A stretch of 64,000 nt of DNA. Origin: Isoetes taiwanensis. Lineage: Eukaryota > Streptophyta > Lycopodiopsida > Isoetales > Isoetaceae. The notes below the pieces were generated by a model. It ran no database searches, was not told the DNA's origin, and saw only the letters and a list, made by a program, of their open reading frames with translations. The stretch covers positions 94,940 to 158,939 of the forward strand of contig JAJEKV010000525.1 in the NCBI GenBank assembly GCA_021234155.1, in the 5' to 3' direction. Shown in pieces: positions 1,019 through 39,875 of the stretch; position 1 is the stretch's first letter, and every line of letters begins with the position of its first letter. Both the position numbers and the translations under genes were made by a program.

Positions 1019-1042
1019 GGGTAAAAGAAAGCTAGGGTGTCT
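1019..1042 (+). repeat. Left 24-bp terminal inverted repeat of the 18.4-kb element
   Basis: Exact reverse complement of 19408-19431. It is followed at once by an 18-bp perfect palindrome (TACATTTGGCCAAATGTA, 1043-1060). Confidence 0.88.
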
Positions 1043-1202
1043 TACATTTGGCCAAATGTAGAGTAAGAGATGTATCACATTTCAAATACATAACCGTTTT
1101 TTCAGTATGTATATAATAGCTATATTATGGAATCTTTTTTTTCGGAACTACTTGCCACGTCAATTAAAACGCAATCATGAAGCGATTTCAATTCCGCACG
1201 CT

Positions 1203-1411
1203 CTAACCACTCCAAGAAGCTTTGAGCGTTAGGAGAATTTCCCACTTTACGGCTAAAACTTCGCCAAACTCGGGATTTCCCTCCTTCTTGCGGGAATTCC
1301 TCCGGCTAACCCTAAACCACGCAAGAACCATGATGAACAATGAAGGAAGCGAAATGGTGCAAGAAGATTGCAATATCGTAAAGGACAAATTTATATATGA
1401 ATGCGGGTCCA
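1203..1411. other. Left interior flank of the element, no gene recognised
   Basis: Moderately GC-rich sequence between the left subterminal region and the T-rich repeats. Short ORFs are open on both strands, but neither translation resembles a family I know. It could be a former 5' exon or an untranslated part of the element. Confidence 0.3.
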
Positions 1412-2180
1412 AATGTTGTTTTTTTATACATGTAGTTGTTTTTTGTTAAAAGTCTACATGTAGTTTTTTGTTAACGTAGAGTTTTGTCAAAATTATCTAC
1501 ATCGTAGGAATTACACGATGTCTACATGTTGTTTTTTAGAAGTAGATGTGGTTTTCGAGTGTTGCTTTTTCTAAAATAGACATGTGGTTTTTAATAAAAC
1601 CTAAAAGGTCCACATGTAGTTTTTAACTATTGTTTTGTATGAAAAAAAACACTAAAAAACTACGTATAGAATTTTGTCCGATTTTGCTAGAAACTACACG
1701 TAGTTTCTTTGTTTTTTCTTTTAACTATGTTGTTTCTAAATGTTGTTTTCTTAAAAAGGTGATATGTGTTTTTTAGGAAGAATGTGGTTTTTGTAAACTC
1801 GTTGTTTCTAATTGTTGTTTTCTTAATAAAATTATATGTGTTTTTTAAGAAGAATGTGGTTTTTTTTAACTCTGTTGTTTCTAAGTGTTGTTTTCTTAAC
1901 AAAATGACGGGTGCTTTTTAAAAAAAAATGTGGTTTTTTTTTTTAACTATGTTGTTTCTAAGTGTTGTTTTCTTAGGAAAATGATATGTGATTTTTAAAA
2001 AATAACTGTTGTTTTCAAGTATTCTTTTTCTCGTAAAGAAGAATTTTGATATATAGGTTTATATAAAATCAACATGTGGTTGTATAAAATAAGCAAGTGT
2101 GGTTTGAATTGAAAAATATGCAAAGTGTTATTTTTGTTTGTTTTTCTAAAACAAAGACGTGGTTTTGAATTGAAGATCTA
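1412..2180 (+). repeat. T-rich imperfect tandem array (TGTGGTTTTT / TGTAGTTTTT motif)
   Basis: Degenerate repeats of about 60-75 bp built from GTGGTTTTT, TGTTGTTTTCTTA and ACATGTAGTTTTT. The A-rich array at about 9830-11110 carries the same motifs in reverse complement (AAAAACTACA, AAACCACAC), so the two form loose inverted arms around 2.2-9.8 kb. Short Lys/Asn/Thr-rich ORFs here are by-products of composition. Confidence 0.7.
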
Positions 2181-2199
2181 GAAACCATTGGAAAATATA

Positions 2200-4780
2200 T
2201 ACCTTTATTTTTCAAGATTGCAGTTACAATTCACAATCAGAACAAAGATATTTTCAAAGAAAACTTGCTTGTCGCCATTAACTGCGGAAACAAATTTAGA
2301 AATACAATCATTCTAAAACAAGATTTAAACATCTTCATGCATAGAGCCATAGGTAGAGCCACCATAGGTGTTTTGCGGCGTGCCAGAGTACAAGATTTGG
2401 CAAAGCAAAACTTGCCCACATATCACCATAACCCTCTCAAGGCGCTTCTCGCCTTGTAAGGCAAAAAATTGCCATATTCTTGAAGAAGGCAAGCAAAGAA
2501 AACGTTGAACGTAAAATGCCTGCTATATCAAGATGGGGAATAACATCAAGCCCCCGCTTAATCAACAAATCTATTGTCCGGCTGCTTTTGTCACTGTGAA
2601 GACATGATTTCATTCCTATTGTAGAGTTGAAAAATAATCGAGATGGCTCGTGGAAAGCCGAAAGCAGACAACATACAAGTTAATAGAAGCTTTGCGTAAA
2701 CCCTTAAATCTCCTCTTCTCAAGATAAGAAAGATCGGGACCTATCTTAGAAAGAAAAAAATAGGTAGAACATAATTAGTAATCGCTATCCATGCCCACGA
2801 TTGAAGAAAGGGCGTGAGCTCTGACTTGAAGTGGTAAAGCCTATATTTCGAGGTCGATGCCTCTCGTGGCCTCCTAAGTGATCACAACCCCGCAAATCAC
2901 CCACCACTTAATTCGCTTTGAAACAGCCTTTTAAGAAAAAAAAAGGGTTTGGAAGATGACCTCCTACCTTCATACATGTCGATTGGTAGCCATTTTTCCC
3001 GAGAACGAAACCTTCTTCCCCTGTTTTAAAATAGATTCTGAAGACAGGTTCCTAAGACGTAAACCTTCTTCCTGTTCCTAAGCCAAATTTAAAAAGCTTC
3101 TAGTGGGGTAGAAACAATAGCCGCAGAGATGGTTAACTAGAGGCAAAAGAAAATTCCCACAACCGTGATGAATTGTTACCGTAATCCTTTGTAGGTCGTG
3201 GGTCCTTAGAATTCGCTGCCATGGGCGGAATGAAGTCGTATGAGTGTTGCAAATGTAAGCTAGAAGCCGGAACAGCTTCGACATTTTTCAAGGCCATGCA
3301 TCAGGCCGCTTAAGAGATCACGCCCTGGCTAAGGAGGGCGCAGTTTATTGCCACCGAAAACTCGTTAATGTATTGTGCCATCGCTGGCCGGGCCGATGCC
3401 GCCATGAAGATAGATCGTAACCAATGGTCGCATAGATGGCGCACAGAGATGGAGTGGAGCAACAGAGAAGGAGGCGAAGAAAGATGGAGGCCACAGAGAT
3501 GGCTTGAATTTTGGCGGCAAGCCGAAGGCAACAAAAGAAGAAAAGGGATGCACGAATTAGGGTTAAAAACGAGATTTGCAAGCGGTGGATAAACGGCCAA
3601 TCAAATTTCTCTTCTTGGATCGATGACCTGGATTATGTGTGAACCGTCCATACTTTGAAAAGTTTCCCGCCATTGATTGTTCCTTTTCATCGCTGGCATA
3701 TTTAATCTGGTGTTACCTATGGAAGCCCCGCAGGCATATCTAATCTGGACATAGATAGGCCCTTGCTTTGCAAATATTCAGTTTGGATGGGTGTTGTGTT
3801 TTTATACTTTCAGGATTTTCTATTCGATAGGGTTGTATTATTAAGTTCCTCACTCATTAGATCATTGGTCTACTCAAGATCATTATCGCCCAAGAAATTG
3901 ATTGTGGTCGCACATTTTTTTCGACCGACTCCCTTATTGGTTTGCATTGTGACCATCAGGAAGGACATCGGGTATGAAACATACTGGATTCTAGAGAGGC
4001 TCTAAAGAGAACGTTGTGAGGGACACTTGGTTGGTATCGAACATACCCTCCAAAAGAGTACCATGTGCTCTACAATATAATAACATCTAGTGAGAAATAT
4101 ACCCAGTTCTAGAGAGGAGGACCAATGTTTGAATCTAGACTTCGGGAACGACCTCAAGCAACTGTTTCAATATTGTACATTTCATAAGCATTAGAATCTG
4201 ATGGCTATGAACATTCCAACTCAATAATCCAACATATGAAAAATCTGATGGAGCACTCACGATAAATGCATGGATTAACCGCCAGGCAACAAACAATTTC
4301 ACTACATTATTCCTTGCCCCATGCATTGTTAATGTACTTTATTTTCCCTCTTGTTTCTTGAGAAGCATCGAAGTTCTACCCATAACATAGTTACAATTTA
4401 AAAAAATGGAATGGTCCAGACTAAGTGGCATGTTTAAGCCTATGTGGCATGTCTGAACCATGTGTTTCAGCCTATGTGGCATGTTACAACCTATATCGCT
4501 AGGAAACATATTGTTAAGAAACATGTTGTAGAAATAGTTGTGACGTAATAGTTTCACGCTAATGTGTAAGATAGGGATGGAGGTCTAAAATCATTTGCTA
4601 CATAGAGCAATTTGGCAATCGATAGCTCACCACCGAGGTTCATCTCGCACGGATCGGGCATGTATCCACCCATCAATTCAAACCTACAAATCTTGGCAGA
4701 TTAACAAATACCATACCCAATTCCGAATCTCTCTACAATGCGATCGTTGCAAGAATGGGAGGCGCTTGCGAATGCGTTAG
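2200..4780. other. Gene-less interior of the 18.4-kb element
   Basis: No coding family recognised on either strand. The stretch holds short ORFs without motifs and a small cluster of GGCATGTTTAAGCC-like units at 4428-4500 that match the 19-bp minisatellite farther right. Confidence 0.4.
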
Positions 4781-4789
4781 TCATATAAT

Positions 4790-5300
4790 GTGGTGTGCCA
4801 CATCTTTCAAAGAAATGCCATGTCATTATAGTGAATATGCTTCTTCTAAGAAGTTGCACTAGGCAAATTCTTCATTTTTCTATCCCTTCATCTTTTGCCA
4901 TGTCATCACTCATATGCTCATGCCATGTCATCACCCATATTTGCTGTAAAAGTCACATGTTCAAAAGAAAGGAAGTTTGGTTTCTCTTTATTATAACACC
5001 TCATCATTTCAATCACCTTGTTTGCCACTATAACCTACTTATCTTTTAATCCCCTTTTTTTTTAATTGGCCTAGTCATTTCCTATTTAAAATGCATTGTC
5101 TAAGCAAATTTTGCATTTTTCCACCACTCTCATCTTTGACAAATTTCACCATAGTTGTCATATACTCATGCCATGTCATCTCCCATAGTTTTGGCAAATA
5201 AAGAAGTTTTCTTGCTCTTTTGATGCCACCTCATTATTTCTAGGGCCATATCATTGCCATATTACCTTATGCGCCACTATCCTACTCATGCATTGCCACT
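4790..5300 (+). repeat. Dispersed repeat family, copies 1-2 (GCCATGTCATCACCCATATTT)
   Basis: Two adjacent copies of a roughly 200-bp sequence with GCCATGTCATCACCC, AGTTGCACTAGGCAAATTC-like and GAAGTTTGGTTTCT blocks. Related direct copies occur at about 8030-8470 and an inverted copy at about 5865-6085. Confidence 0.65.
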
Positions 5301-8030
5301 CGCCTAATAAAGCGTGATTTCAACCACAACCCAGAAACTTAAGGCAAACTTGAAACTATGCTCAAGTTGGAGTTAGAGCCTTCAGATCACTTTTGTCGAT
5401 CAACTGCAGACGAGAAAAGATTGATAGAATAACTCAAAAAGCTCAAAAGTTCATGTGTTCATACCTTTCCCATTTCCATAAAATGGTACCAGTACTCAAA
5501 TCGAGATGGCAGAGTGGTGCCTAAGCCAACCTATACTAGATAAAGACGAGTGGCAAACATGCCTTATACTAGACAAAGGCGCATGCATGAAAATCAAGCA
5601 TGGTAAACGTAAATATGGAAAAAAAAAAACCCCTTTTCTTTAAGTAAGAGGAAGTAGGAACCAAATTGCATACCTTATATTTAGTCAAACGCCTTGTAAC
5701 TTCTCATGTTTCTAAATATTGCACCGATTTGTTATGCCATGTACCTGTGGTGCTCCATATTCTAGATTGCCCGTGAGGGGGGTATTTGGCAAAATTGAGG
5801 TGCACTATTTCACTTATACAATCGTGGCTTCAACATGATTCAATGCGTGTGACATGTGTGCAAAGTGGGGGTCATCCATTGCAAGGTGGAAAAAAATGGT
5901 GAGGTGGCCAAGATGAGCAATGAGGTGGAAAAAATGAGTTATGATGTGGCAAAATATGGATGGATGGAAGAATGAAGAATTTGCCTAGCCTATTTTGCAA
6001 TTTTTTAGAAGAAGCATATTTTACCATGATGACATGGTATTTTTTAGATGATGTGCCATTTCACGTGATGATTAAGCATTTTAGGCACTTTTGGTAGAAA
6101 ATGACTAGACCATTCTAGACCAGGAGGTGCTTAAAGTAGAGATGCCAATGAATCAGATTGTCGTGAAACTTGGTCCCATATGGGGTAATATCAATACTCA
6201 ATATTGTGGAACATTCAATTTGTCGCTCCGAGTATTCAAGTGTGATTTTTTTTTTTTTTTTTTTTTTTTTGAAGATAAAGAGGTGCCATTTTTATTTTTG
6301 AAAATAAAAAGGATATACATTAGTTCTGGATGAGGGACTACTACTGTGTTCACACCTTCTTCGCCTCCCAACGCATAATGCTTATTCAGATTCCTAAGAG
6401 TCATATAGAAAGAAGTAGTACAAAGAAAGCTAGGACAAGGAGTGGTAAAAGATAAACAACGATTTTGGCTGAGGAATTGTGTTTGTGCAGTAGCGGTGCT
6501 CGAGAAAGGACAGCTTCTCTCCTACCATAGCAGCCCTAACCCTAACCACGCTTCCCAAGAAGCAAAGATCTAGGAGGTCGCCTTTGTGACAGCAAGAATT
6601 TATCAATCTAAGAAAAGTTTAATATCTAGTCAAGGTCCCAAGTGCAAAGGACCTAAACTCGACCTCCAAAACATAAACCCTTCAATAACCTACCAAAGAT
6701 ACATGGTTTATGTTGATTGTTTTTGCAAATCAAGGCAATCTAAAAAATACTTCTTGTAATCCAAATTCCGCTTTGACCAGCTTTTCCCATATCACAACTC
6801 CTTTTGGCACACCTCGTTTTGGAATTTCTCAAAACTTCATTGGCAACTCAAAATCCTCATTTCTGATCACGCTTGCGCTTGACTTTCATTGACCTTTTGA
6901 CCCGACTTTGAACTCGAATATCCCATGATCCGAGATCCAAGTCAATAATTCCAACTCACAAACGTAATGTGGACAAATTCATACATTTGCCCTCTACAAT
7001 TCACGCTTACCCTCTATTCGTTGTCGAATGCATTTTGTTTTCATTCTTTCACGTGCTTGGGAGCGGCCGGAAGTCCGCATTTGCCATTAACATGGTTAAG
7101 TGATTGATGAGTATTTAATGTACATGTTATTTAAGATTATTTGTTACCTGTGATAAAACCGTTTGTGCACCTTCTAGGGTATACATGATTTGCTATTGTT
7201 GCAGATTCTATTCGAATGATCATCGAATGATGATCATTGATATAATTTTAAGAGGTCTTTTTTAGAATTATATTCAGAGTTTAACTAGATAGAAACCCAA
7301 GAACTGGCAAACAGCCTAAACTCCAAAGAAATACACACGCCGCTACAATTAGTGTAATGACATCCCCAAATCAAAAACACAACAAAAAAACTTCTCATGT
7401 ACAACATAAAAGATAACTTCTACCATTAACTAGAAGACAAAAAAAGCAACGGACGCAATGTGAAACACAAACTAAAGCTCGATGCCTTATGATGTCTATT
7501 TAAAAGAACATTGTCCACATTTGACCATAGCTCCCTCCCTCCCTCCCTCCCTCCCTCCCATCCCATCGCTCCCTCCCTCTCAAATGGCAAATTATTAGAT
7601 TGCATTGGTTTAATGTTTAAGGTTGATTACCCTAGATTCCATGTAGTCTATTATATCTACCCATTCTATCCAACACTATGTTACTACCCATTCCATGTGC
7701 ATATGGCTAATGCAATGCATCCGGGCAATACCTACGTAACATCTACAAATACATCTACATTTATAGCTTATTATTCTGTCTACAAAATCCATCACTTCTA
7801 CTCATTCTAAACGCCCACAGCCTAATGCCCCAAGATCGTCGGGCACACATTTCTAGTTCTTCTATAAATCATTTGGCGATCATAAGCTACTTATAGGATT
7901 AGCATGTTTTTAGAAGCTCAAAGGGCAAAAGATGATTATCTTACCTCAATGAGTATCAATATCAATATTGTTATAGTATTTGGCACATCACATATTGACA
8001 CCTCAATTTGGCCTATTCAGTCTGCCATAC
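5301..8030. other. Gene-less interior with inverted repeat copy, poly-T and CTCC tract
   Basis: Holds an inverted copy of the dispersed repeat (about 5865-6085), a poly-T tract of roughly 26 bases near 6246-6271, and a CTCC microsatellite at about 7532-7580. No protein family recognised. Confidence 0.5.
7532..7580 (+). repeat. (CTCC)n microsatellite
   Basis: Six or more uninterrupted CTCC units, then imperfect ones. Confidence 0.9.
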
Positions 8031-8470
8031 CAAATGTGTTAGTCATAATGCGACTTATGGAAATATGCTTCCAAAAGTTGCAAATTGGCTAGACAAAGTT
8101 TGAATTTTTCTATTCCTTCATGTTTTGCCACGCCATCATTATATTTGCCACCTCACATGCTCATGCCATGTCATCACCAATATTTTTTGCAAATAGTCAC
8201 CTTTTCATAAAGGAACTTTTTATAAAGGAAGAAGTTTGGTTTCTTTTTCTTATGATACCTCATCATTTTCCAGGCCACGCCACCTTGCTTGCACCGATTT
8301 GCCACACCATCAAAGAAATGGGCCATGTCACCATGGAGAAATATGCTTTTATAAAAGGTTGCAAAATTGTTCACTTAAATTCTCCACTTTTCCAACCCCT
8401 CATGTTTTTCCACCTCACCACTCATGCCATGTCATCTCCCATATTTTTGCAAATTGAGTTTGGATCTATC
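8030..8470 (+). repeat. Dispersed repeat family, copies 3-4
   Basis: Matches 4790-5300 in order: GGAAATATGCTTC, TTGCAAATTGGCTAG, CATGCCATGTCATCACC, then GAAGTTTGGTTTCTTTT and a second shorter copy. The ORFs crossing it (8120-8536) are not supported as genes. Confidence 0.65.
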
Positions 8471-8539
8471 CTCCTCCCGATGTGGCAATTAGAGGCGCAG
8501 AGCCGCTTTTGCAAGAGAGCAAGATATTATTTTTGATCA

Positions 8540-9008
8540 TTCTCGTTGTTATGACTCGATGATATTAGTTTAGAGACGGCACTGTTAACCATAAAACGAA
8601 TGATGGTATCAACCTTCCAAAGCAAAACCCTACAAGAACCTAGTAACTCATAGGGTTTACATTTCTGAGGTTGAGACGGGTCGCTTGCATGGATAACTTG
8701 ATGCACCATCTCTAGACATGCATGTAGAGACATGACCACCTAAAAATGGAGTTTCACCACCGCCATCCCTAATTGTCCCAAACATGATTGCTACCGCAAA
8801 AACCGCTATTGAATTCTAAATCACGATCGGGAAGAGAATAAATCCAAAATCAATTTTGTTAGTTGCCCCTCTTTGCTCCACATTACCAATTGCAACTCCC
8901 CGCCCAAATCCCTGGCTCAAGTGATGAAAACTCAAGTTTCAAAACGTAAAACCCCTTCAAGAACCTAGTAACTCACTGTGGTTTACATTTCGTGAGTCTA
9001 TATCCTAG
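8540..9008. other. Gene-less stretch
   Basis: No motif recognised. It holds a short direct duplication: AAAACCC..CAAGAACCTAGTAACTCA occurs near 8625-8650 and again near 8948-8972. Confidence 0.4.
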
Positions 9009-9727
9009 CTCAAGGTGGCATGTTTGAGCCACCTTGGCATGTTGGAGCCCACGTCAAGATGTATGAGCCACCTTGGCATGTTGGAGCCTATGTGGCATGT
9101 TGAGCTCATGCTGCCTAGGCGGCATGCTTTGAGCCACCTTGGCGTGTTGGAGCCCAGGTGGCACGCTGGAGCCCACATGGCATGTTTGAGCCACCTTGGC
9201 ATGTTGGAGCCTAGATGGCATGTTTGAGGCATGTTGGCATGTTGGAGCCCACGGGCATGTTTGAGCCACCTTGGCATGTTTGAGCCTAGGTGTTATGTTG
9301 GAGCCCACGACATATTTGAGCCACCTTGGCATGTTGGAGCCTAGGTGGCATGTTGGAGCTGTGGAATTTTCGAGCCACCTTGGCATGTTTGAGTCTAGGT
9401 GACATGTTGGAGCCTAGGTGGCATGTTTGAGCCACCTTGGCATGTTCTAGCCTAGGTGGCATGTTGGAGCCCATATGGCATGTTTGAGCCACCTTGGCAT
9501 GTTGGATCCTAGGTGGCATGTTGGAGCCTAGATGGCATGTTTGTGGCACGCTGGCATGTTGGAGCCTAGGTGGCATGTTGGAGCCCATAGGTGGCATGTA
9601 GGAGCCTCGCGTGGCATGTTTGGGCCATCTTGGTATGTTTGACCCTGTGTGGCATGCTTGAGCCACCTTGGCATGTTGGAGGCCATGTGGCATGTTGGAG
9701 CCCGCTGTGGCATGCTTGAGCCACCTT
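9009..9727 (+). repeat. 19-bp minisatellite, about 35-40 units
   Basis: Tandem units of GGCATGTTGGAGCCTAGGT and variants (GGCATGTTTGAGCCACCTT). Two main unit types alternate, giving a roughly 38-bp higher-order period. Because 19 is not a multiple of 3, several frames stay open, producing MPRWLKHA-like periodic peptides. These are repeat translations, not genes. Confidence 0.92.
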
Positions 9728-9829
9728 TGATCTAACCGCTGAAGGTATTTTTCACTTAATGTAAAACAATACGATACATTTCCAAATTTGAGCACACAAA
9801 CAATATTCCGTGGTGGTGGTTTTGCTTAA

Positions 9830-11110
9830 GAAATAGCCTCAAAAACACCTCAAAAAAACTATACTTCCTTAAGAAATAGCTATGTAAAAACTACACCTTG
9901 TTATAAACCACACCACTTCGTAAAACCACACTTTTTAGAAAAAAAAGCCACTTAAAAAACTACACCTACTTAAAAACCACACCTAAAAAAACCATACTTA
10001 CTTTAAAAAAAAGCTACTTAAAAACTACACCTAGTTATATAAACCACACCTAAAAAAATCATACTTCCTTAAAAATAGCTTCTTAAAAACTACACCACTT
10101 CAGAAAATCGGCCACTTAAAAACTACACCCGCTTTTATAAACCACACTTCAAAAAACCATACTTATTTAAAAAACAGCCATTTAAAAACTACACCCACTT
10201 ATAAACCACACCTCAAAAAACAACATCTCAATTAAAAAATCACACACCTTCGTAAAACCATACTTCCTTAAAAAACAACCACTTAAAAACTACACGCCAC
10301 TATAAACCACACTTCTAAAAAATTATACTTCCATATAAAACAACTACTTAAAACTACACCTAGTTATATAAACAAATTATTTGAGCTACTTTGGCATGGT
10401 CAAGCCTCAAAACCATACTTCCTTTAAAAAAAAAAGCTACTTAGAAACTACCCCTAGTTATAAATCACACCTCAAAAACCAAACTTCCTTAATAAATAGC
10501 TACTTAAAAACTACACCTAGTTATAAACCACACCACTTCAGAAAACCACACTTCTTAAAAAAACAACCACTTAAAAACTACATCTAAACTTCAGAAAACC
10601 ATACTTCATTAAAAAAAAAAACCCACTTAAAAAACTACACCCACTTATAAACCACACTTTTAAAACCATACTTTTTAAAAAAAACAGCTATTTAAAAACT
10701 ACACTTGCTTATAAACCACACCTCAAAAACAACACCTCGATTAAAAAAAAATCACACCACTCGTAAAACTATACTTCCTTAAAAAATAACAACTTTAAAA
10801 CTACACCTCCTTATAAACCACACCTCAAGAAACTACACTTCCATAAAAAACAACTACTTAAAAACTACACCTAGTTATAAACAACACCTCAAAAAACAAC
10901 GCCTTCTTAAAAACAACACCCTTTAAAAAAAAAACAACACTTCCTTTAAAAAACCACACCTTAAAAAAAGACCACATCTTCAAAAAAAAAAAAAAACTAT
11001 AGCTCCTTAAAAAACTACACCGCTTCTTAATAAACCACACCTCCACATAACCACATGTAGATTTTTTGAACAACGACATGTGGTCTTTTTTAACCGTTGT
11101 TTTAAGTGTG
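9830..11110 (+). repeat. A-rich tandem array (TTAAAAACTACACCTA..ATAAACCACACC)
   Basis: More than fifteen imperfect copies of a roughly 60-75-bp unit with CTTAAAAACTACACC, TATAAACCACACC and ACCATACTTCCTTAA. The motif sense is opposite to the T-rich array at 1412-2180. Spacing is irregular and the array is non-coding. Confidence 0.85.
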
Positions 11111-11329
11111 GTCCTGCACTGGGGTGGTTGTGATAGCAATGATAAATTAGCGCCTAAGCATTCCTTTATCAATGATTGTTGGTGAGAATGGAAAACTCAG
11201 CAAAAAGGAGTAGCCTCCGCATTCTTCAAGTGCAAGCAAGAAACCTCACAAAAGCCGCAATTAGAAGAAAGCGGATGTCATTATCGTGCTAATATGTGGG
11301 CAATCGGCAGAAGGCAACCTGTGGCGCAG

Positions 11330-13930
11330 ACATGCTTCCGGAATCAACCAAACAGCTTGGTAAATGAGTTTTGTTAACCCACACAAAACTTCTCCAAAGT
11401 ACGTGGATGTCAGAAGAAAAGGACACTTCCAATCCAGCTTTTGGACATGCCCTGTGTCAGTTTTAAGTCTTTTAATCCTCTTTTTGCAAGCTTGATAGAA
11501 GCTAGCTTCAGGCATCCCCGATAAGTTTAGTAATCCTATTTGCATTCCATGCAAGGGACGATATGATATACATTGAAGTACATCCAACTACAAAGAATTT
11601 ATTTTTACACTTGAGGTACCGAATGAGCTATGTTTAACAAAGAAAAGTACTTGGATGTACTTCCACTTACATCCAATGTGGCATAAGGCGTAAAATGTGT
11701 TGAAAGTCGCCGCGGTGATTATAGTCTTGATTTTTGTAGTTCCCAAGTACATTATAGTACATTTTAAGCTTTCCGATCTCAAGATAGTTTTGAAAGATAG
11801 GGTGATATATAAAAGTATTTAAATGTACTTCCTTCCATAAGAAAAGTATGAAATACATACATCCAGAATACAGATGACACTGTCTGCGGACGGGGTTACA
11901 TATTGAGTTTTTATGTACATCCGAACTCTTTGAGTACATTATTTATACATTTATACATATCATTTACATGGTATGTACTATGTTGTGGTATAGTAGTTGA
12001 ATGTATATCAAATCATGATTCAAGTGCCATAGAACTAATGCAATGTCCGCAACATCTTTGAATTCGTAAGTAGTTCTAATTTATATCTTACTTATACATG
12101 CCGCTTTTTTCTTTTGCAGAGTGAATTGTATGAGATGTTCAAAGATGAACATCCCGAAGTGAAGATTAGCATCGAAAGTTCGAGCCGCTTAAGCCCACGC
12201 GGTGTGAGAAGGTTGAAAGAGAGGAACACATGCCGCAAGCAAGGAAGCATGAACAAGCTGATCTATACGTAAAAGCTTTTAGCGCCCGAGGAGCAAATTT
12301 CATGCCAATTGTACATGTTCTTGTGGTGTTTGTGCAGCAGATGAGAACAATGGCGCCCCGCCAAGCTCCTTCTAAAACATTTTCAAAATGTTGGTGCTAT
12401 GTGGAGAGCTACGGCCCGTGACAAGGAAGGCTTAAGAGTGGCATAGTTTGGATCTGCGGTCAAGGGAGAGTGCCGAATCGCGGGCAATCAAAATATTCAA
12501 ATCTGCCCTAAGGAAAAAGAGTCGCAGAATGAGAACATTGAATGGCAAGTTTACAAGCACGCGGAACGAACCTTCCAAAGTCGGGCACTTCAAGGAGGTT
12601 GAAGCTTGTTATCGAAAGCGGACTCCGTGTACATTGCTTGACAAGATGTTTCAAAGACCTTACAAAGTTCACTATTCACAACTTTTCAAAGCAAGTTGGC
12701 AGAGCAAACAACGTGAAATCAAAGGCAAAAATTGAGGGATGATTCTATTTTGTCAAGAATGGACTTTGTAGAGAACTACACTTTGCACCATTCGTGGAGG
12801 TTCAAACCGAAAGCATTGGAACAATGACCGATAACTATTCTCGTGCATATAACCATGATGAAAGTCAATGGCGAGCTGAAAAAAACTGTTCATTTGTATG
12901 TTTCCGATGTTATGAAGCATGATGCTTTCTTTGTTCAAAGGCTGCACTCAAGAAGCACCATATTTGGATGATGCAAAAGGTTTTGGCCACATCAAATACC
13001 ATGTCATGTGATCCGATGGGTGTGCTGCTCCGGCTTTAAGTGTTCTCGAGCCTTTATTTGAATGTGGCCCAATATTATAACAGTATAAAATTAGGATGCA
13101 AGTGGAATTATTTTGGCTCGTGCCATGGAAAAGGAGAACATGATGGGCAGTGTTTTGGAGAAAAGGGTTCCCAGCGACGAGCAAAGGAAAGAGAATGGTG
13201 TTCCGATTTTGGGTGCCAACTCGCTTTGCACTTTGTCGAGACAAAAGAAGTGCAAAATGGACAGAGTCATATGGGAGGTGATGGCGTAAGACATTAACAG
13301 GGACCCTCGCTCGATTGTGAGACATTGCCCGGTACTCTAGCTATACATTGTGTGTTCGCTATTAATCCAAATTTGACCCAACACTTGTCATGTATAGATC
13401 CCCGCCATGTTTTTGCAATGGTTGCTTGAATTTCAGATGGGGAGAATGTGAGAATCTCGAGCATTGTGGTGCGTGGAAGCCGCGACAACCGGAGCCTAGT
13501 TCGCCCGTGTCGCATCTAACAAGAAGAGCTAGTTGGTTTTATGCAGGTGATGAGCAAGAACTATCCGATGTACTCCAAATTGGAGACATATTTGCATCTT
13601 TTGCTGCCTCCGTGGAATCATGAAAATGTTCCATACTTCGCCCCTCCTATGAAGGAGATGCATATTCTTCAGAAGATGTGATTGACCCACTATGGAAATA
13701 GAATGCTTGCTGGTGAGGGTGGTTATAGCTGGTCATTACTATCAACTCGCTACAAGGCACAAAGCACAAGTACAAGTTGTTGGATGACAAAATAGTATTG
13801 GTACCAAACCGAATCAGAATTGGAGCAAAGTTCACGATGCAAAGCAGGTCAAGCATAAGTTGAAGGGGCACGCATAAACATATATGATGATCACGAGAGG
13901 TGCATGACATGCTTATATCAAGCCTACCTG
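11330..13930 (+). pseudogene. Decayed transposase-like protein (TDNYS / SDGC / GKGEHDG type)
   Basis: Plus-strand coding readable in pieces across all three frames. In order: ESTKQLV..PHKTSPKYVDVRRKG (about 11.33-11.42 kb); after an AG acceptor at about 12118, SELYEMFKDEHPEVKIS and RGVRRLKERNTC; MTDNYSRAYNHDESQW (about 12.83 kb); SDGCAAPAL (about 13.01 kb); QYYNS..CKWNYFGSCHGKGEHDG (about 13.07-13.15 kb); IGDIFASFAASVE (13.58 kb); YDDHERCMTCL (about 13.89 kb). I recall proteins of this shape from large mobile elements in plants and animals. Treating the Asp of TDN, the Asp of SDGC and the acidic residues of GKGEHDG as a DD[E/D] triad is inference. Several stops and frameshifts make it inactive. 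It is the best transposase candidate of the 18.4-kb element. Confidence 0.6.
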
Positions 13931-13991
13931 AGATTGTTGAGTGCACATGACTAAGTTCTATACAAATGAACTTTCATATTTGCCATCATCT

Positions 13992-14361
13992 TCTGTTATG
14001 TTGAGAAAACTAGTCGATTGCTGTAAGTTTTTTTGTTATTTACTTATTTTTAATCGGGGTGCATTTTGATACTTCAATTTTCAAGATCACGTATATCTTC
14101 TCGTGATCAAGCAAAATGTATATCGAAAAGTACAAAATGTTTATCAATTGTTGCATGAAGAAGTTAAACTAGTCTGTGTTATGTTGAGAAAACTAGTCGA
14201 TTGCTGCAAGTTTTTTCTTATTTACTTATTTTTTAATCTGAAGTGCATTTTGATACTTAAATTTCAGTATCACACAATATCTTCTGTTTCCAAGCACAAT
14301 GTATATCAGAAAGTACAAAATGTTCATCAATTGTTGCATGAAGAAGTTAAACTAGTCTGTG
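13992..14361 (+). repeat. Tandem direct duplication, two copies of about 184 bp
   Basis: TCTGTTATGTTGAGAAAACT through GAAGTTAAACTAGTCTGTG occurs twice back to back (start points near 13992 and 14177) with few differences. It follows the transposase-like relic and has no coding signal of its own. Confidence 0.85.
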
Positions 14362-14739
14362 AACTTGTTCTGTTATAATGGATATCAATAGCTTTTCTTT
14401 TGATTCATGAAACAAAGCAGAAAGTGGAACATGTATGGAGACAAAACTTTGTATTACATATCACAAGATATACAACCGGTCATATCGATATGATGCCAAT
14501 ATATACAAGTCTGTTGTTCATATTTTATATTAACATTAATTTACATTCAAAATCTGGTCACAGCCGATGTGAAGCCAGTACATACTATTCTGCTGTTTCA
14601 ATATATTACTTTCTTGCAGCTTGCCAATAGCCCTGACATGCCATCTCTCGGCCCTTGTAGCCCCTCGAAAGCATTTGCCTCCAAACAATTGTGGTTAGTA
14701 CATCGGTTGGATTGCGTGAAAGGATTTCGGCTTCACATA

Positions 14740-15300
14740 TTTGCTGTGTCCGGTGCTATCAACAAACCCTCTAGCCATGGTTTCGAAGTGTCAAGAGACC
14801 GTGTCTTCAACATCACTTTCCCTCGCCATGAAGGTGGGCATATGCAATTTTCGTTGGGATTGAAGAGCATCTTGTACTCGAGTCGCCTACTATTAGTGTG
14901 TTGCTGTCATTCCTGTCTGGATACTTCTCATATATGAACTCAATTGGCTTCAGATACAAAGGTTTATCTTCACATGGTGCAATCCGGAAAGGCAGCTCCA
15001 AACAGTGGCTTCCATCAAAGGTGAACCTTAAGTCCCTTATATCAAGGCCATTGTGAAGATTTTATCCACTACTCTTGATAGGTTCCATGGAGCTATTGAT
15101 GACCATATTCCTACTTCAAAGTGTTCAAATACAAATTCCGTGAATTCGCCTAGGTGGGGCCTTAAAAACAACACTTTCTTGCCTATTATGTCATAATTTC
15201 CAACTAGTCGATCATCCGATACCAAAGTCCTATGTATTTGTTTTGCCAAAACATTATTGATATCAAACACTATCAACCTTTTCGGTACACCTGATATGAA
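14740..15300 (-). pseudogene. FCP1-like domain cargo of the 18.4-kb element
   Basis: Minus-strand FCP1-like HAD domain in two frames: LIVFDINNVLAKQ (motif I, DxN), LFLRPHLGEFTEFVFEHF, VGIWSSIAPWN, then after a frame change LDIRDLRFTFDGSHC, KPLYLKPIEFIYEKYPDR and NTLIVGDSSTR (the late Asp motif). It lies directly downstream of the Ulp1-like part on the same strand, so both probably belong to one transcript. It shares layout and wording with the FCP1 part of the interrupted gene at 1-538. At least one frame change and the missing second motif-I Asp make phosphatase activity unlikely. Confidence 0.72.
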
Positions 15301-15499
15301 AGAACATGCAATTTATCAATAAAGTATGGTGGAGTTAAATAAAAAGAGATTTTATTCATTAAAATTCAATGAAAAAATGTGTATTTTATAATCAAATAGT
15401 GTTCAGCATTGACAATAGGGATAGGTTGTTTCTCAGCCACATTTATTAGTACCAGGTGGTCTAATAGTTTCGGGTGCGATGTGAATGTGGTCTAACTCC

Positions 15500-16300
15500 T
15501 GAAGTAGTGCTCGGGTGAGAACATCACGACGATCCTCCGCATACTTTGGCAAGAACCAGCTTCGGGTAATCTGCAAATGTGACAACAATACTTACATAAT
15601 AAGTATTAAAAACCATTTGTTTGCAAGACAAAAGAAGTGAGACACTCACATTGGTAGTTTTACCACACATAACCATTGTGTCTACAAACTGTGATATAAG
15701 CCGCAACATAGAGGCCACATGAATCCCCATCTTTTCGGCTGTGGACACTTATGAATCTTCACAACCGGTGAAGGATTTTGTCCATGCTTCAAAAAGTGGG
15801 GCACTCGACACAACAACCGCGTGCCATAGTGAGGATGTGGAGCCGCAAAAGACCGCGGATCTATTTTGTAGCAAATGAATGAAAAAAGCTGCTAACATGG
15901 TATCCAATCTACTCAATATTAATAAAAGGAGATGTGAAATACAAAATACCTCTTAAGTGCAAGCATGTCAACGCCAATGTCCCGGCAGAATTGAAGATCC
16001 GAATGTTGATGGTGTTCTTACTCTTAGTAAGTGCCATGTTGAAGATGGCCAAAGTGTGATGTTCAGTAACTCTACATAGCATTGGAATCATGATCCATCT
16101 GCACTTCAGCCAATTTATCCCTGTAAGAGCTACCTTTACAATATCTCTTCCACGCTCGGAGGCTGCCATAGATTTATCTTTTTTCGCTTGCCTTGGCCCA
16201 TGCCGCAAATTCCATGAAGTCCGTCGGTGGGAAGAACCAGACGTCGGCCTTCTTATCATCTGGAACACAGAGCTGCAGGTACCTATAACAAGTTGAAAAG
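15500..16300 (-). pseudogene. Ulp1-like (C48) cysteine-protease relic
   Basis: Minus-strand reading at 16268-15909 has the family outline: DVWFFPPTDFMEFAAWAKA in a neighbouring frame, WLKCRWIMIPMLC, then EHHTLAIFNMA (position of the catalytic His, normally HW) and INIRIFNSAG (where the family has the catalytic Asp in a DS context). The later Cys region is not clear. The next segment (15750-15520) continues toward the FCP1-like domain. Ulp1-like proteases (SUMO-type hydrolases) are common cargo of plant MULEs and other DNA elements. The His-to-Asp spacing is plausible, but the substituted residues and frame changes indicate decay. Confidence 0.5.
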
Positions 16301-19100
16301 GATAAAATTACTAACTTGACTTACACATACAAATGAACAAGTTCAAAGTCCAGTACCTTGCATACATATCCACATGCGGTTGGAAAATTTTCCCACATCC
16401 ATGTCCAAAGACATCTTGTTCAAATAAATAACACTCCATTTCGTGCAAAGATCACGGGAAAATCCTTGCCTTCTTGAGCTTCATCATTCGGTTCAGCAAG
16501 GCATCGTATGGCTGATTGAATCGCAGCCCCGGGTTCAATGACCAGTACATTTACACAAATCATCTACATTCGCCTACTACTATCCATATTATTTTACGTT
16601 TTTAACTTGGATACTAGATGTAAAAAAAAAAAAAATGTAAGATATGTAGATCAAGTTACCCTCAGAGATCATTCTTACGCTTCTCACGACATCGTTTTCT
16701 GAGTCAAGATCCATTTCCTTCCCTTCTTTTTGGTTTCCTCACTCAGATTCTTATTAGGTCGAGAATCCTCGTCTTCAACCTCTCCCCGATTTCTCATTGT
16801 GATGAAATTCGGCCCTTTGCTATGTCAAGCAATATTTGACACAAACTTAAAAGTATCCCCGCTCTACATGTTGATGCTCGGAAGATTCCTTTTCATTAGG
16901 ACTGTAAACATAGGATGTCATGGATTTCAGCTGCCGTATTAATCGAAATAAAATGCTTTCTTACCGCTTTCTACTTGCTTTAATTGTCTTCTTTCGTGGG
17001 CTTTTTAGGCGTGGACTTCTTCTTTGGAGTCGGTTTAGGCTGCTTTGCCTTTACTTTTTTTGAAGATGTGGCCTTAGCCTCGCTCCCTCAATCTCTCGAA
17101 GTTCCTCGCCATAACTGGAATGTCACCATGCGGCACTGGTGCCGACCTCCTCAACTCAGACACCGCTAGAATAGTGATTTTGCTTTTTCCTTCAATCACT
17201 GCTTTCTTTCCCTCGGCTACATCTTGCACCTCAATTTTCTTTGGAACCTCCAAAACTGTGAAAACCGAACCAAGAATAAGAAATTGCTTCCTCTGACACA
17301 ATGCAAATTGAATTTGAAAACAAGCGCACCTGATCTGTGGTGTAATTTCTGCTCAGTAGTTTTTTTGGCACTTTGAAGCTCTGAAAATAAATCACATAAC
17401 AGTCAGATATCAGTCTCAAACTAATCAGTCTCTAACTGTTCTGTACATATCAATAGCTGTACATATTACTAGAACTGATCTACATTGAAGTACTTTGAGT
17501 ACATACACATGTAAACAGCTATTTATCTAGATGGAATGTACATGTAATGTACATGAATGTGCTCCAATGTATGCACATGTACACATCAGACATTACATAA
17601 AATACCTCTAAATGTTCTGCCACAAAACTCAGTACACAACTCCTAATTTTATGTATTTAAGTTCTACATTTAGGACCCTACACTGTGAATGTACAACATG
17701 TATGTAAGAAACACATATATGTATGACATGCAAGCCAAGGAACTATAAGTATAAAATAACCAGTACACTCCTACATGCTGTAGCAAAACCTTAAGTGCAA
17801 AGAATCTACATGTAAATGGATTCTACATTAAATGGATTCTACCGGTGCAAAGACAAATTGAACATAAATCATGAAATATCGCTTACCTCAAGTGTACACA
17901 CCCAAGATCTTTGAAATGTTTTCATCCCATTTGCATGCTCTTTAAGGTGATAGTCCAACAGTAAATAGAATATGAGAAAATGTAAGATATGAAATGAATG
18001 CTCGCATGGAGCAACTAGGATAGGTTCATTATTAGCAAAGCCATTACTACAAAACACACATCCATGCACGATATGAATTTTTCTTCAGCCGGAGAGATCA
18101 CTAAGCTTGTTTTGGGCTGAAGGAGAATCATTGCGAGAATGCATCATGTACTTATGCATATCATCAAGCCGTCCAAAGATTCAAACCGAACTTTGTGAGC
18201 CTCCTCAAGTCTCCGCAATCCTCTTTTCACATAACTCCTTCTCCCGAATGGCTTTCTCCAATGGCTCCTCGAATTCTCTTCAAACATTTCTTCCTTCCCT
18301 GGTTCTATCCCTCATCAAAAGGTCAACCTCCGCCGCGACAGTCTTGATGTCTCTCTTATTCTCATGAAGCGTCGCCGAGAACACTATTGATGTCTTCTTG
18401 TATGCGTGCTAGGTCCTCTTCATGTGCATCCTTTCTTCCCGAAATCTTATTTATATTGTCGTAATGCACATGCCTCGCTGAATTTTTCGGTTCTTCAACC
18501 TTATGTGCCGCTAATTAACTCTCCATGACACCGCCGCAATGAGTTTCGCAAATTCAAGCTCTTCCTTAGGGTAAAATCCTTGCTGAAATTTAGGAACCTT
18601 GGATGTGGATTTAGAGGTCCCAATTTCTTCTTCGTAATAGCAGATTCTTTTGCTCCTCCCTTTGCCAAATCTTTGGCCAAAACTTTAAAAGTATCCCAAT
18701 CTACTTTTACCTGTCACAATTGAAGGGCAAATGCACGAGCAAAGTACTCGTGTACATGGCGATTTGTGACCTCCCGCTTACCAAAAACAATTTCATAATG
18801 TTTGTAGAAGTTCTCGCCCACTCGGCTTCACGCTAGATTCTTTGAACCCCCGTGATGTCTTTGGGCCCCACCGCTTTCGTCCATTATCTGTTGTAAATCT
18901 GGAAAAATTTCATCTGCATTGACACATCTTACATGCTTTGCTTCCACAACAGTGGGTTCTTCACAAATAAGCCTTCTTTTTGGCCCTGGTTCCTCAGAAG
19001 TTTGAACCTTCCTCTTGTTCTTTTCGGCTTTCTTGCTAGAATCGGCTATTTTCAAAATTTTGTTTAATCTGGGTGACTTCCGGGAGGCAAAGGCGTCCAT
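16300..19100 (-). pseudogene. N-terminal basic/coiled-coil and RING-like part of the element's cargo protein
   Basis: Begins at an ATG (19100) with MDAFASRKSPRLNK and a long Lys/Glu-rich stretch, a start typical of Ulp1-carrying transposon proteins. It continues through FYKHYEIVFGKREV (about 18.75 kb), a charged probable coiled coil, and a RING-like half-motif at 18069-17980 (CVFCSNGFANNEPILVAPCEHSFHI: C-x2-C-x12-C-x-H-x2-H). Short exons with GT/AG boundaries follow at about 17400-17330 and 17255-17080. Stops occur between the pieces. Order on the strand is coil, RING-like, Ulp1-like, FCP1-like. Exact exon limits cannot be fixed from sequence alone. Confidence 0.5.
17430..17870. repeat. TGTACAT-rich AT stretch
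   Basis: Dense GTACAT/ATGTAC motifs, probably an intron of the cargo gene. A similar stretch at about 11590-12010 lies upstream of the transposase-like exons. Confidence 0.5.
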
Positions 19101-19359
19101 TGCTTGGATTTGGGCAAGGATTTCGAGGAAGAAGAATAGTTACAGTCGAATTACTTTGTTGATCACTCACAAACACAAAAAATTGGAACGGCGGCAAATT
19201 TTTTTTGGCAACAGGAAACACTTCGCAATCTCCCTCCGAAAAATTGCAATGAAGGTCCGTTCTGGTTGCCACTGCCACTCATAATTTTGAATTGCTGACG
19301 TGGCTACTCCTAATCATTACATATCCCAACTAACTAAAATTCAAAAAAATAACAAAAAT

Positions 19360-19415
19360 GGGTGCCTACATGCCCTACATTATACATAATGTAAGGGCAT
19401 TTTTTTTAGACACCC
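19360..19415. repeat. 56-bp imperfect palindrome at the right end of the 18.4-kb element
   Basis: GGGTGCCTA... pairs with ...TAGACACCC, and GCCCTACATTAT pairs with ATAATGTAAGGGC, giving a foldback just inside the 24-bp TIR. The left end has its own palindrome in the equivalent place (1043-1060). Confidence 0.8.
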
Positions 19416-19431
19416 TAGCTTTCTTTTACCC
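19408..19431 (-). repeat. Right 24-bp terminal inverted repeat of the 18.4-kb element
   Basis: Exact inverted copy of 1019-1042. The minus-strand ORF of the interrupted gene runs into it and stops at the TAG inside (…RVKES then stop). Confidence 0.88.
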
Positions 19432-20806
19432 TTTCCTCCCCTTCTTCATTCAAATCAATGTGCATTATTTTTCTCAGTGGATACTTTCTAGCCTCCACAA
19501 CTTTTTTCTTGTTAGTTCTCTCAACCCCTTTCTTCTTGCTGGTCCCAACTTCAGTGACCTTCTTGCTACTTGAGTTCCCTTTCTTTTTGCTAATTAACTC
19601 ATCCTTCTTTGGCATATCCTGTTTTTGTTTTCTCTTGGCTGGAGTGTCTAATATTTGACACTCAACTTCACTAGTGTTTAGACCTGCCTCTGAATCCTCT
19701 CCAATTTTACCATTGCTTCTCAAGTGTCTTGGGCTTACCATCTTAGATTGATCCTGGACAATTTCTGGCTCGTCCCTTGCATATCTCAACCTTCTCTTTG
19801 TGCTAAAGAAGGGGACTTCAACTGCTCAGGCAAAACATCTTCAACATCAAGCCGAGTATTTGATCCCAAATCTGGCCGAGCTTTCTGAGTTACTTTAGGA
19901 TCAAAAGAAGCAACCTGCTCAATTCCTGTTGGAGTACTCGTACCAAGTTCAATATAAAGGTCTTCAGGAATGTTACATTCACATTTCAAACATCTGCCCT
20001 CTTTGAACAATGAAGCACACATTACATGATATTCATGTTCACATTCAAGAACTACAGACATCTTGTAGTTATTATGAAAACTTAAACCACAAGCACTACA
20101 ATAACTTTGCAAAAAACCTGGAAGCCTTCTTTTGATGGTGTTGATGCAGAAAGGAGAGCTGGTGATTTGCCTCAGAATTTGAAGGTTACTTGCATGTTTT
20201 CCTGCATTTATCTCAACATCCAATTGAATTAATTCAGCTTCCAATGCCTCCTTCTTCACAAGAAGATCGGGATCTCCAGGTTTGCAAACAGACTCCAAGG
20301 ACTCACATGCATATTCTTCAAACATTAATTTCTTTTCTAAATCTGTGATTTCTAACTCCACTTCCTTTGTAATAACCACAGCTCTCTTCTCGGCAATAGT
20401 GGACTTTAGCTTTTCCATACTGCTTCTTTTTTCAGACAAGGTTTTAAATATTTTATCATTGGATTTCTCATCAGCAGCCAGACTAACAACAATATCTTAC
20501 ATTTCCTTTCCCATCTCTGCCTTTTTATTCTCAAGCTTCCCTAAGTTTTCTGTCACTAACTGCAGGTTATGCTTCAAATTAGTCTGATCAAGAGTAGGCT
20601 TAGGAATACCTTTTGCAGAAATAGCAGGCTTTGAATCAATTTCAGCTTTTGCTTTTTGAACATTTTTTTTCGGCCTGCATTTCTTGTACATCATAACCTG
20701 TGCCCCATATGAAGCCCAATTTATCTGATGACCTTCAGGATCAAGCAGTCCTTCAGGGCAATTTTCCCATGCAAAGGCAAGAACCAATTGTTTTCTTACT
20801 TCATTA
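19432..20806 (-). pseudogene. Coiled-coil/RING-H2-like middle part of the interrupted RING/FCP1 gene
   Basis: Minus-strand ORF lying between the two insertions. It starts NEVRKQLVLAFAWENC, continues with a Lys/Glu-rich probable coiled coil, then a RING-H2-like motif at about 20105-19985 (CSACGLSF..LECEHEYHVMCASLF..CLKCEC), then a Lys-rich tail ending LRKIMHIDLNEEGEE. There is one in-frame stop (TAA at 20497-20499, same frame on both sides) and one 1-nt frameshift near 19790. Upstream it joins in frame to 26138-26338 across the hAT element. Downstream it joins to 1018-1 across the 18.4-kb element, with NLQVNKKDVEKDIMEN as the first residues beyond. Role unknown; a ubiquitin-ligase-like module is suggested only by the RING spacing. 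Confidence 0.75.
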
Positions 20807-20814
20807 TTAGAAAC
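20807..20814. repeat. hAT 8-bp target-site duplication, left copy (TTAGAAAC)
   Basis: Identical to 26130-26137 on the far side of the element. Confidence 0.93.
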
Positions 20815-20828
20815 CAGGGTGTTTTTTA
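20815..20828 (+). repeat. hAT left terminal inverted repeat
   Basis: CAGGGTGTTTTTTA, matching the reverse complement of 26116-26129 at 13 of 14 positions. Confidence 0.9.
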
Positions 20829-21120: not shown

Positions 21121-21594
21121 AGAGTCACAATTTCGCCACTTGTAGGGGCTAAATCTTGTTTGAGTTTTTAGACTTAAATTCCCAAAGTATTTTTTAATAA
21201 TATATTATTTTTTCAAATTTTGTGGATTCGAATTTGCAATTGCCCTATTCTGCTCCAGTCCCGCTCGAATCCTCTCTTCGTTGTCTCGGCTCAAATCAAA
21301 GGTTAGTTTTCATTCTCCAAGTATCTGCAATAAGTGTTTTTGTTAGATTCATGCTATCGAATGAATCCAGTTGTGCTTATGTCTACAATCAATTAATCTC
21401 TTAGTAATCCTAGTTAAAGAATGAAGCACGAATTTGTTTTTTACAATTGCATCAAGATCATACAAACTAAAGGCCTACTCTGCCCAGCAAAGAAACGGAT
21501 GTTAGATTGTATTGTTCTGATATTGTTATGTTTTTGCTTCCTTAATTTGTAGAGAAATTCTTGTAACTAATTTTTATATGTTGATACAGCTATA

Positions 21595-24257
21595 ATGGAG
21601 GGAACTTCACAGAAGAGAATAAGTGAATTCTTGAGAGATGCGGCATGCAGGACTAAACGACGGATTACGGTATCATCTGCTACCTCCACCTTCATAGACC
21701 AAATTGAAATAGTTAATGAAGGCTACACATCTGCGGACGACAAGGACTATGATCCTGCCGAGTTGATAGAAGACTCACTCAATGAGATAGAATCGTCAGA
21801 AGATGAATTGCATGGTGTAGACGATGCTAGAGAGAATCATATGCATCTACATAGTGATGAAGAAGTAGTCCATATGCGAGGACCATACAAGGAAAGGAAG
21901 GCTAGCCGATGGGATGCAAATAGAACCTTCAAGAATGATTGGCTTAGAGAGTATCCTTTCATCGAGCCAGTGGAGGTGGATGGGCGCAAAATGGTAAAGT
22001 GTACAATCTGTTCTTGGAAGAACAAGACAGAGAAACTATTACAGCCAAAGAAGAACAATATTGATCGGCATGTTGGTAAGTTAAAGAAGAAGATCATAGA
22101 GGAAGGAGTTAGTAAATATGTTTTTGCTGGTTGGGAAAGTGCTGAGAAGAATGTGCATGCACGTAATGCACAATTATACTATAGGCACGAGCATCAAATG
22201 AAGGAAAAGAAGAACCGGACAACCAGGATGCATTGTATGTTTGAAAAGGCAGAGATATTAGAGTTTGAGGCCAAATGCATTCAAATGAGAGTTGTGCTTC
22301 ATTTGCTCCAGCAAGGGCGACCAATGAAAGATTTTCCAGAGCATGAGATGTTGAATGTAGCACACAGGCTGCCAAACACTCCAAGGTGCCACTGGTCTGA
22401 AAATTCAGGTTGGGAATTTGCAACACATATGTCCTTCGTTGCGCTCGAGGATCTACGTGAAGTGATTAAAGGTAATGGCTGATTGGAGATCATTTATGTT
22501 GCAACATATTAATTGCTTGTTGTGTATTTGATTATGTTGCAGGATCCATGTTTTTAGCGTTGTCCTTGGACGAAGTTACGGCTAATGACAATACATCATG
22601 GCTATGTATGCACCTTTATAATGTTATAGATTTTCGTAGGAAATCTTATTTTTTGAGCATCTCAAAGCTACGTTTAGATTCTACAGCTGAAACCCTTTTT
22701 CGAGTTGTACAAGAGAAATTGAAAGAGGTTGTGGATCTGAGTTTCAGTGATTGCGCAAGAAAGATGGTTTGTTTTGGTACAGATGGAGCTAGCGTTATGA
22801 CAGGTTGCAGGAATGGATTAGCAATTAAGTTGCAGACTAGTTTCATGCCTTATACGGTGGCTATTCATTGTATGGCGCATCGCACGAATCTAGCTTTTAA
22901 AATTATTTCAGATTTTGCTTGTGTTCAAAAAGTTGAGAATCTTGTACGCGCTGTCAACCAATTTTATTGCCGCAGTCCACAAAGGTTTGCTCATTTCCAG
23001 CAATTTTCAATTGGATTATCTGAGGGACTGAGATTGCTAAAGGATGTGGAAACTCGTTGGATCTCTATAGCCTTGCCTGTTCGTAGATTATGCAATGAAT
23101 ATGTGTCTGTTGTAGGAGCTTGTGCAGAGTTAGCTGATCAGAATGAAGCAGCAGCAACAGAGTTGTTTGTACTTCTTACAGATGTTGAGACATTATTATC
23201 TCTCTATGCTCTTACTCCGTTGCTCAGGGAGTTAACCTTTTTGATTAAACAGGCTCAGGATCAGACCATTTATATCCCAGAGTATTCGATTGCAAGAAAG
23301 GTAGCATGCACGAAGCTTGATAAAATGTATGTTGGAGAAGATTGCTTTGACAAAGACGAGGCATTTTATAGATGGCAGAATTTAGTTTCCTTGCAGGAAG
23401 GAAGGAGTTTCTTGGCATACAATGGGAGTGGAGCCTTATGCATACATGTAAATGAACAATACTATCCTGTGCATTATAGGCGGAGAGGTGGACGAAATAA
23501 TCATATGCGGAGGATGGAAGTGCAAGAAGCAGATTTTAATTCACTTATTTCAGCCACAAGAATAGAGATGAATTCTGTGGCAACATGTCTATCCTCTGAG
23601 CTAAGATCAAGGTTTCCACGTGATGAACTCTTGGATGCTTTAGGTATTGTGTTTCCTAATTTCTGGAACAATATTACAGCACATGAGGTACTTTTTCGCA
23701 GATTTACCACTAACTTAGGAGTCTTGCGTGATCACTTTTGTGTTAAGCATGTAGTTGAAGGAGTAGAAATTGATGGAATATTAAATCTAGAATCATTGAA
23801 AGAACAATCAGGATTATTTGGGTCTACTATGTATGCTCAATTTGGCCTGTTAGAAAAGCCACTGGAGCAGGGTGCAGTTACAAGATTATGGGTCAAATTA
23901 ACCACTCATCAATATCTAAAGGCTGCTATAAGCGAGTATATTAAGTTGGCAAATCTAGTTTTGACGATGATTCTTGGTAGCGTGGAAGATGAGCGAGCTT
24001 TCAGCTCACTTTCGTTTATAAAGAATAAGTTGCGCAACAGATTGGATGCAAATTTAGATGTCACCCTGCGTTTATTCAAATGTGAACACTCTTTGGAAAC
24101 TTTTCCATTTGATCGAGCTTTTCAAATGTGGAAGGATGCAACGAGTAGAAGAGGAACTACCGCTGTGCATGAGATACGGCGTGATGATGATAATGTTCCA
24201 AACATTCAAGATCAGCCAGAGTTAGATGTCAATGCATGGCATGTTGGAAACTTATAG
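21595..24257 (+). CDS. hAT-family transposase, two exons, 863 aa
   Basis: Exon 1 is 21595-22471, a GT-AG intron spans 22472-22542, and exon 2 is 22543-24257; the total is 2592 nt in frame with no internal stop. The N-terminal region is acidic. A BED-like zinc-binding segment (C136, C139, H159; last ligand unclear) precedes the catalytic core. The core shows ALSLDEVTAND (D near 302), CFGTDGASVMTG (D near 373), HCMAHRTNLAF (about 401-411) and VETRWISI. The C-terminal hAT dimerisation segment is EDERAFSSLSFIKNKLRNRL (E near 776). These match the hAT D-D-E arrangement and the ZNF862/DUF659-like plant group. Expected role: nuclear cut-and-paste transposition at TIRs. The start ATG follows an in-frame-free leader; no other ATG competes. 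Confidence 0.9.
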
Positions 24258-39002: not shown

Positions 39003-39187
39003 CTCTGTTTTGCTCTCAAATCCGCCCTAACATGCAGTTCAGAGCAGATTTCTCTAAGTGGGATTCAAATCCGGCAATCTCAAGCTTATTTAGCTTCAAA
39101 TTCAGCAAACCAAAGCAGACTCTTCTTCAAATCTTACACTTCAAAGCATGTCTAAGCTCAGGATAGGGATTTTTGAGAAAAATTTAC

Positions 39188-39659: not shown

Positions 39660-39875
39660 CGTTGTACCTGATTGCTCCTATAAAACACTTCCTCGATCGA
39701 CTGTAGGCCTTCCTCAATCGCCAAACGCAAAGAAAATCGCCAGAGGAAGAGCTAAAGAACAAAAAAAAAAAATCATTTTCTTAAAAAAAAAGCTCTTCAA
39801 TAATAACAGTCGTAAACAATTAATTCGAAGCATTAATTACCGGTGGATATCTTAGAAAACCAAAAAATTATATTC

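Follow-up and report, generated by a model that had tools for sequence, protein, structure and literature searches.

Sola is one of the seven superfamilies of DNA transposons with terminal inverted repeats that PMC10741241 names for plants. As described there, Sola elements encode a DDD transposase, generate 4-bp target-site duplications, have ends of 11 to 1124 bp, and are mostly 2 to 9 kb long, with some over 15 kb; the same source gives them as known from Physcomitrella, mentions their occurrence in bacteria, and suggests that they are seemingly not common in flowering plants. Other reports mention Sola1 in Physcomitrella and Sola elements in two Capsicum species (PMC9033089), Sola2 elements with AT-rich 4-bp duplications in amoebae (PMC3627910), and Sola in fern genomes (PMC6890710 and PMC6786969), and in the searchable text of the gymnosperm repeat paper PMC8620675, the sole match for "sola" was Solanaceae in a reference. 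Here we describe an 18.4-kb element that splits a gene of Isoetes taiwanensis and that is probably a cut-and-paste DNA transposon of the Sola superfamily, an assignment made by described features and not by sequence comparison. The element lies in a 64-kb stretch of contig JAJEKV010000525.1 (assembly GCA_021234155.1, positions 94,940 to 158,939 of the forward strand), which we refer to as the window and by which all positions below are numbered.

Perfect ends and a 4-bp duplication delimit the element

The element runs from 1019 to 19431 (18413 bp). Its left terminal inverted repeat (1019 to 1042, plus strand) starts GGGTAAAAG, and the 24 bases of the right one (19408 to 19431, minus strand) are its exact reverse complement, so that the terminal bases read GGG...CCC. 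The sequence TTTC stands directly outside each end, at 1015 to 1018 on the left and 19432 to 19435 on the right. No fifth base is shared, since TTTC is preceded by T on the left and by the terminal C of the element on the right, so that the duplication is 4 bp. All of these coordinates, which the original prediction had given, proved exact when the sequence was reread.

We scanned the window for perfect inverted repeats with arms of at least 14 bp, all four bases in each arm, and an outer direct duplication of at least 3 bp, a scan that is blind to imperfect ends. The pair at 1019 to 1042 and 19408 to 19431 was the sole one found in 64 kb. When the first 21 bases of the end were used as a query with up to 3 mismatches, the window yielded two sites, namely, the two ends themselves, whereas 100 shuffled sequences yielded none, and no other site in the window carried the same ends at this threshold. 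Looser matches, with 6 to 8 mismatches out of 24, occurred at four other places and look like chance.

The ends could in principle be a coincidence or an artefact of assembly, and the fact that a single copy has been seen would fit such an explanation. We regard it as extremely improbable. The chance expectation for a pair of 24 plus 4 bp is ~3e-8 (calculated for uniform composition), the interval encloses the remains of an appropriate transposase, and the open reading frames at 21571 to 24254, close by, are long and open, which argues against a sequence riddled with indel errors.

It had also been claimed that joining the two flanks restores the reading frame of the split gene. The arithmetic is right, since the element plus one duplication amounts to 18417 bp (3 x 6139) and the minus-strand frame passes from DLNEEGEE straight into NLQVNKKD, but any two open frames have a one-in-three chance of being in phase when joined, so this signal is weaker than had been supposed. 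Because the element also contains a member of a transposase family with a predicted integrase-like fold, the conclusion that the 18.4-kb stretch is a DNA transposon inserted in a gene is nevertheless well supported, and the original prediction to that effect is borne out by the ends, the duplication, and the decayed transposase together.

Just inside the left end lies an 18-bp palindrome, TACATTTGGCCAAATGTA (1043 to 1060), and the right end has a counterpart, TACATTATGTATAATGTA (19376 to 19393), which has the same outer arms (TACATT...AATGTA) and sits 14 bp further in. When 300 stretches of 75 bp were drawn at random from the window, 14 contained a perfect palindrome with arms of at least 8 bases. 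The predicted single-strand fold of the right end was equaled by none of 200 shuffles (z = -4.0), whereas that of the left end was ordinary (47 of 200 shuffles as good, z = -0.7). Perhaps these palindromes play a role in transposase binding.

The element carries a decayed DDD transposase

The transposase lies on the plus strand at 12150 to 13868. In a frameshift-aware alignment, 544 codons could be aligned to the family consensus, 191 of them identical (35%), with 23 frameshifts and 3 stops, counts that vary with the chosen gap penalties. The largest insertion in this alignment was a single codon, which rules out introns as the cause of the breaks. The copy is richer in indels than plain decay would suggest, with 23 frameshifts versus 3 stops. 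An upstream exon, sought with the N terminus of the moss relative, was not found.

The identification holds for the unedited sequence. We cut the window into stop-to-stop pieces of at least 15 residues and scored them with a profile of 45 related proteins that did not include the window's own sequence. Five pieces matched at E < 0.01 (best E, 2.3e-13), all on the plus strand between 12447 and 13620 and in the order of the profile, and no further piece elsewhere in the window matched below that threshold.

The relatives themselves were gathered in steps. A hand-threaded read-through of the transposase, used as the query, found 11 relatives at E ≤ 1, the best at 4.6e-40. Ten of the 11 were aligned (alignment A1; P0011, with an E value of 4.1e-4, was left out), and a search with this alignment returned 227 relatives at E ≤ 1e-3. 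The 45 proteins of the profile were chosen from these and are mostly near full length; 44 came from the best 120 of the 227, and P0008 was added. Among the 120 of 227 matches listed, 2 bore plant names, those of the moss Ceratodon purpureus and the liverwort Calypogeia fissa. The 45 members are 44 to 59% identical to the leave-one-out consensus. The family has three aspartates in a DD40D arrangement, in which D224 and D308 are present in 45 of 45 members and D349 is present in 41, the other 4 having a gap at that position. In the structure model of an intact relative, the predicted fold has an integrase-like core, with the aspartates at RNase H-like positions.

A Pfam scan of 9 relatives returned none above the cut-off, the nearest match being DUF4326 in P0006 (E, 6.7e-4; 20.7 bits versus 25), and an NCBIfam scan of 3 relatives likewise returned none above the cut-off. 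No PDB sequence matched the transposase profile at E ≤ 1, the 53 pattern hits in viral contigs included no confirmed family member, and a literature text search for the transposase motifs found no paper. The element thus ties exact ends and a duplication to a transposase family none of whose 9 scanned members reaches the Pfam cut-off, and with both in hand, active relatives, and small elements moved by them, can be looked for.

The tested features of the element agree with those described for Sola

The original prediction held that no standard plant superfamily fits, which is probably wrong, since the description of Sola covers the 4-bp duplication, the DDD transposase, the ends, and the size. 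Here, TTTC flanks both sides of the one copy, the aspartates are conserved as given above, and both the 24-bp ends and the length of 18413 bp fall inside the ranges described in PMC10741241. Sola ends are, moreover, described as variable in sequence and length, and the superfamily is reported from moss and fern genomes. The element differs in lying at the large end of Sola sizes and in carrying a gene for a NIF phosphatase domain with a RING-like stretch; one literature search for a cargo of this kind, a thin test confined to titles and the openings of abstracts among the matches listed, turned up none.

The other superfamilies agree less well. Ginger and GingerRoot share duplications of 4 to 6 bp and an integrase-like core, but their ends are described as TG...CA and 40 to 270 bp long (PMC10741241), as opposed to GGG...CCC and 24 bp here. 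CACTA and Mutator elements can likewise be large and carry extra genes, but the same source gives CACTA/CACTG ends and a 3-bp duplication for the former, neither of which is seen here, and a duplication of 7 to 12 bp for the latter, compared with 4 bp here. Tc1/Mariner elements duplicate TA (PMC10741241) and not a sequence such as TTTC. The 4-bp duplication also differs from the 8 bp of hAT elements. PIF/Harbinger elements have a 3-bp duplication, which is again not what is found at this locus.

Several points weigh against a Sola transposon. The element is known from one copy, and its membership in Sola rests on features and not on homology to any Sola transposase. Most Sola elements are 2 to 9 kb long (PMC10741241), and the mean length of curated Sola1 sequences from bivalves is 5445 bp (PMC10294476). 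Plain Foldseek searches found nothing at E ≤ 0.001, either with the model of a first relative against PDB or with that of a second relative against PDB and viral libraries, and VIA-align re-examined the candidates that Foldseek itself had listed. Finally, two peptide patterns gave 86 hits in bacterial and archaeal genomes, none of which was confirmed as a relative.

Some of this evidence would suit a cut-and-paste transposon of a different DDD superfamily, perhaps one that has no name, which makes 4-bp duplications and has bryophytes among the hosts of its relatives. The scans in which 0 of 9 relatives reached the Pfam cut-off and 0 of 3 reached that of NCBIfam point in this direction, as does the lack of a confirmed relative in the scanned bacterial and archaeal genomes, given that PMC10741241 mentions Sola in bacteria. 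We consider this unlikely, while still giving it appreciable weight: the structural features that we saw agree with Sola as described, and a matching Repbase entry may exist.

Mobility and age

The element probably moved by a cut-and-paste route. A DDD transposase would bind the 24-bp ends, perhaps aided by the palindromes just inside them, excise the element, and insert it where the target had been cut with a 4-bp stagger; repair of the gaps would then leave TTTC on both sides. The parts of this scheme with direct support are the ends, the duplication, and the homology of the transposase with its three aspartates; in addition, modeling of an intact relative predicts an integrase-like core. 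With ~26 breaks (23 frameshifts plus 3 stops) in its own transposase, this copy was probably moved in trans by a relative.

The perfect ends are no proof of youth. If each copy had changed by 5%, the absence of any difference in the 28 compared pairs would have a probability of 0.06; with 10% change, the value would be 0.004. The transposase has ~15 breaks per kb, and since substitutions usually exceed indels, this density would imply change of 10% or more. Most of the decay of the transposase is therefore probably older than the present insertion, an active relative having moved the already damaged copy. The target gene, which in ~2.3 kb has a single stop, two changes of frame, and one stretch that is not open, helps this inference.

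The split gene and the cargo gene encode related NIF domains

The gene into which the element inserted lies on the minus strand. The part before the insertion (19436 to 20823) has a possible coiled coil, judged by eye, a RING-like stretch with an E value of 0.099, below the cut-off, and a Lys-rich stretch; the part after it (118 to 1014) contains a NIF domain (PF03031; E, 2.7e-13) in the open reading frame at 118 to 585. The gene is not intact. An in-frame stop lies at 20497 to 20499, the reading frame shifts at about 19822 and again at about 945, and the stretch at 586 to 798 is closed in its frame, where an intron is possible. A search by read-through for a relative of this gene without the interruption found none at E 0.01 among 7994 scored candidates.

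Inside the element, also on the minus strand, lies a decayed cargo gene (14819 to 19100, an extent obtained by hand threading) with a basic N terminus, a RING-like stretch, a Lys-rich stretch, and a NIF domain. The NIF phosphatase domain (14819 to 15291) matches PF03031 with an E value of 8.6e-7 and 29.2 bits, above the cut-off of 21.8, and the RING-like stretch (17887 to 18060) resembles zf-RING_11 with an E value of 1.5e-4 and 21.8 bits, below the Pfam cut-off of 27. An Ulp1-like protease that had been suspected by eye at 15663 to 16172 was dropped, as that region had no Pfam match and its PDB matches were at chance level only.

The domain order of cargo and target is alike (RING-like, Lys-rich, and then NIF, which in the target lies beyond the insertion). 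When the two NIF domains were compared, they aligned over 124 columns with 29% identity and 57.8 bits, whereas 100 shuffles reached at most 25.8 bits. NIF proteins of solved structure scored lower in phmmer (17.8 bits against the cargo and 13.3 against the target, scores that are not strictly comparable), and the top PDB matches of the target NIF domain were unrelated lipoproteins at chance level. Judged by these alignments, the NIF domains of cargo and target are related.

Kinship of the two genes over their whole length seems likely. Against it stand the RING-like stretches, which could be aligned only by picking out one piece by hand (25.4 bits over 27 columns, while shuffles reach 25.8) and are absent from the four alignments listed for the full comparison, and the occurrence of related NIF domains in many proteins. 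The element may have captured a relative of the target, the target may itself be the cargo of an older element, or a common domain may have turned up in both by chance. One version of the second origin would be a large plant Sola-like lineage that has a RING-NIF phosphatase as standing cargo and whose members insert into one another, with the phosphatase or RING protein perhaps aiding their spread. The failure of the RING-like stretches to align in the full-length comparison counts against this idea, which we hold to be unlikely. Should elements of this kind carry the NIF gene regularly, they would be transporting a host-like enzyme that is unusual for a transposon.

Repeats inside the element and features of the flanking DNA

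The element contains several tandem arrays: one with a 72-bp unit near the left end (1715 to 1998), one with a 19-bp unit (9016 to 9727), and AT-rich arrays with units of ~32 and ~65 bp (9845 to 11041). Just after the transposase, a 183-bp unit occurs twice in tandem (13994 to 14361).

The arrays, together with a cargo gene on the strand opposite to that of the transposase, might be taken to mean that the 18.4 kb never moved as a unit and that other mobile DNA, the NIF gene included, came to occupy the inside of a smaller transposon at a later time. Such a composite origin seems improbable to us, since the scan found no second perfect inverted repeat of at least 14 bp with a duplication inside the element, though imperfect ends would escape it, and since both inner genes are heavily broken.

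Next to the target gene, at 21571 to 24254, are two long plus-strand open frames of 303 and 593 amino acids, stop to stop. They look like a hAT-type transposase; neither Pfam nor NCBIfam gave a match at the cut-off, and a right-side copy of the left end guessed at 20816 was not found. An inverted repeat of 108 bp (26942 to 27049 and 27268 to 27375; 99% alike, with ~220 bp between the arms) is possibly a small foldback element, and tandem copies of ~1.1 kb that are ~84 to 85% alike occupy 51681 to 54876. Pieces of host genes are recognizable at 36273 to 36563 (tubulin), 38574 to 39026 (B-box zinc finger), 39321 to 39677 (glycosyl hydrolase 32), and 32259 to 32858 (an ACT domain below the cut-off).
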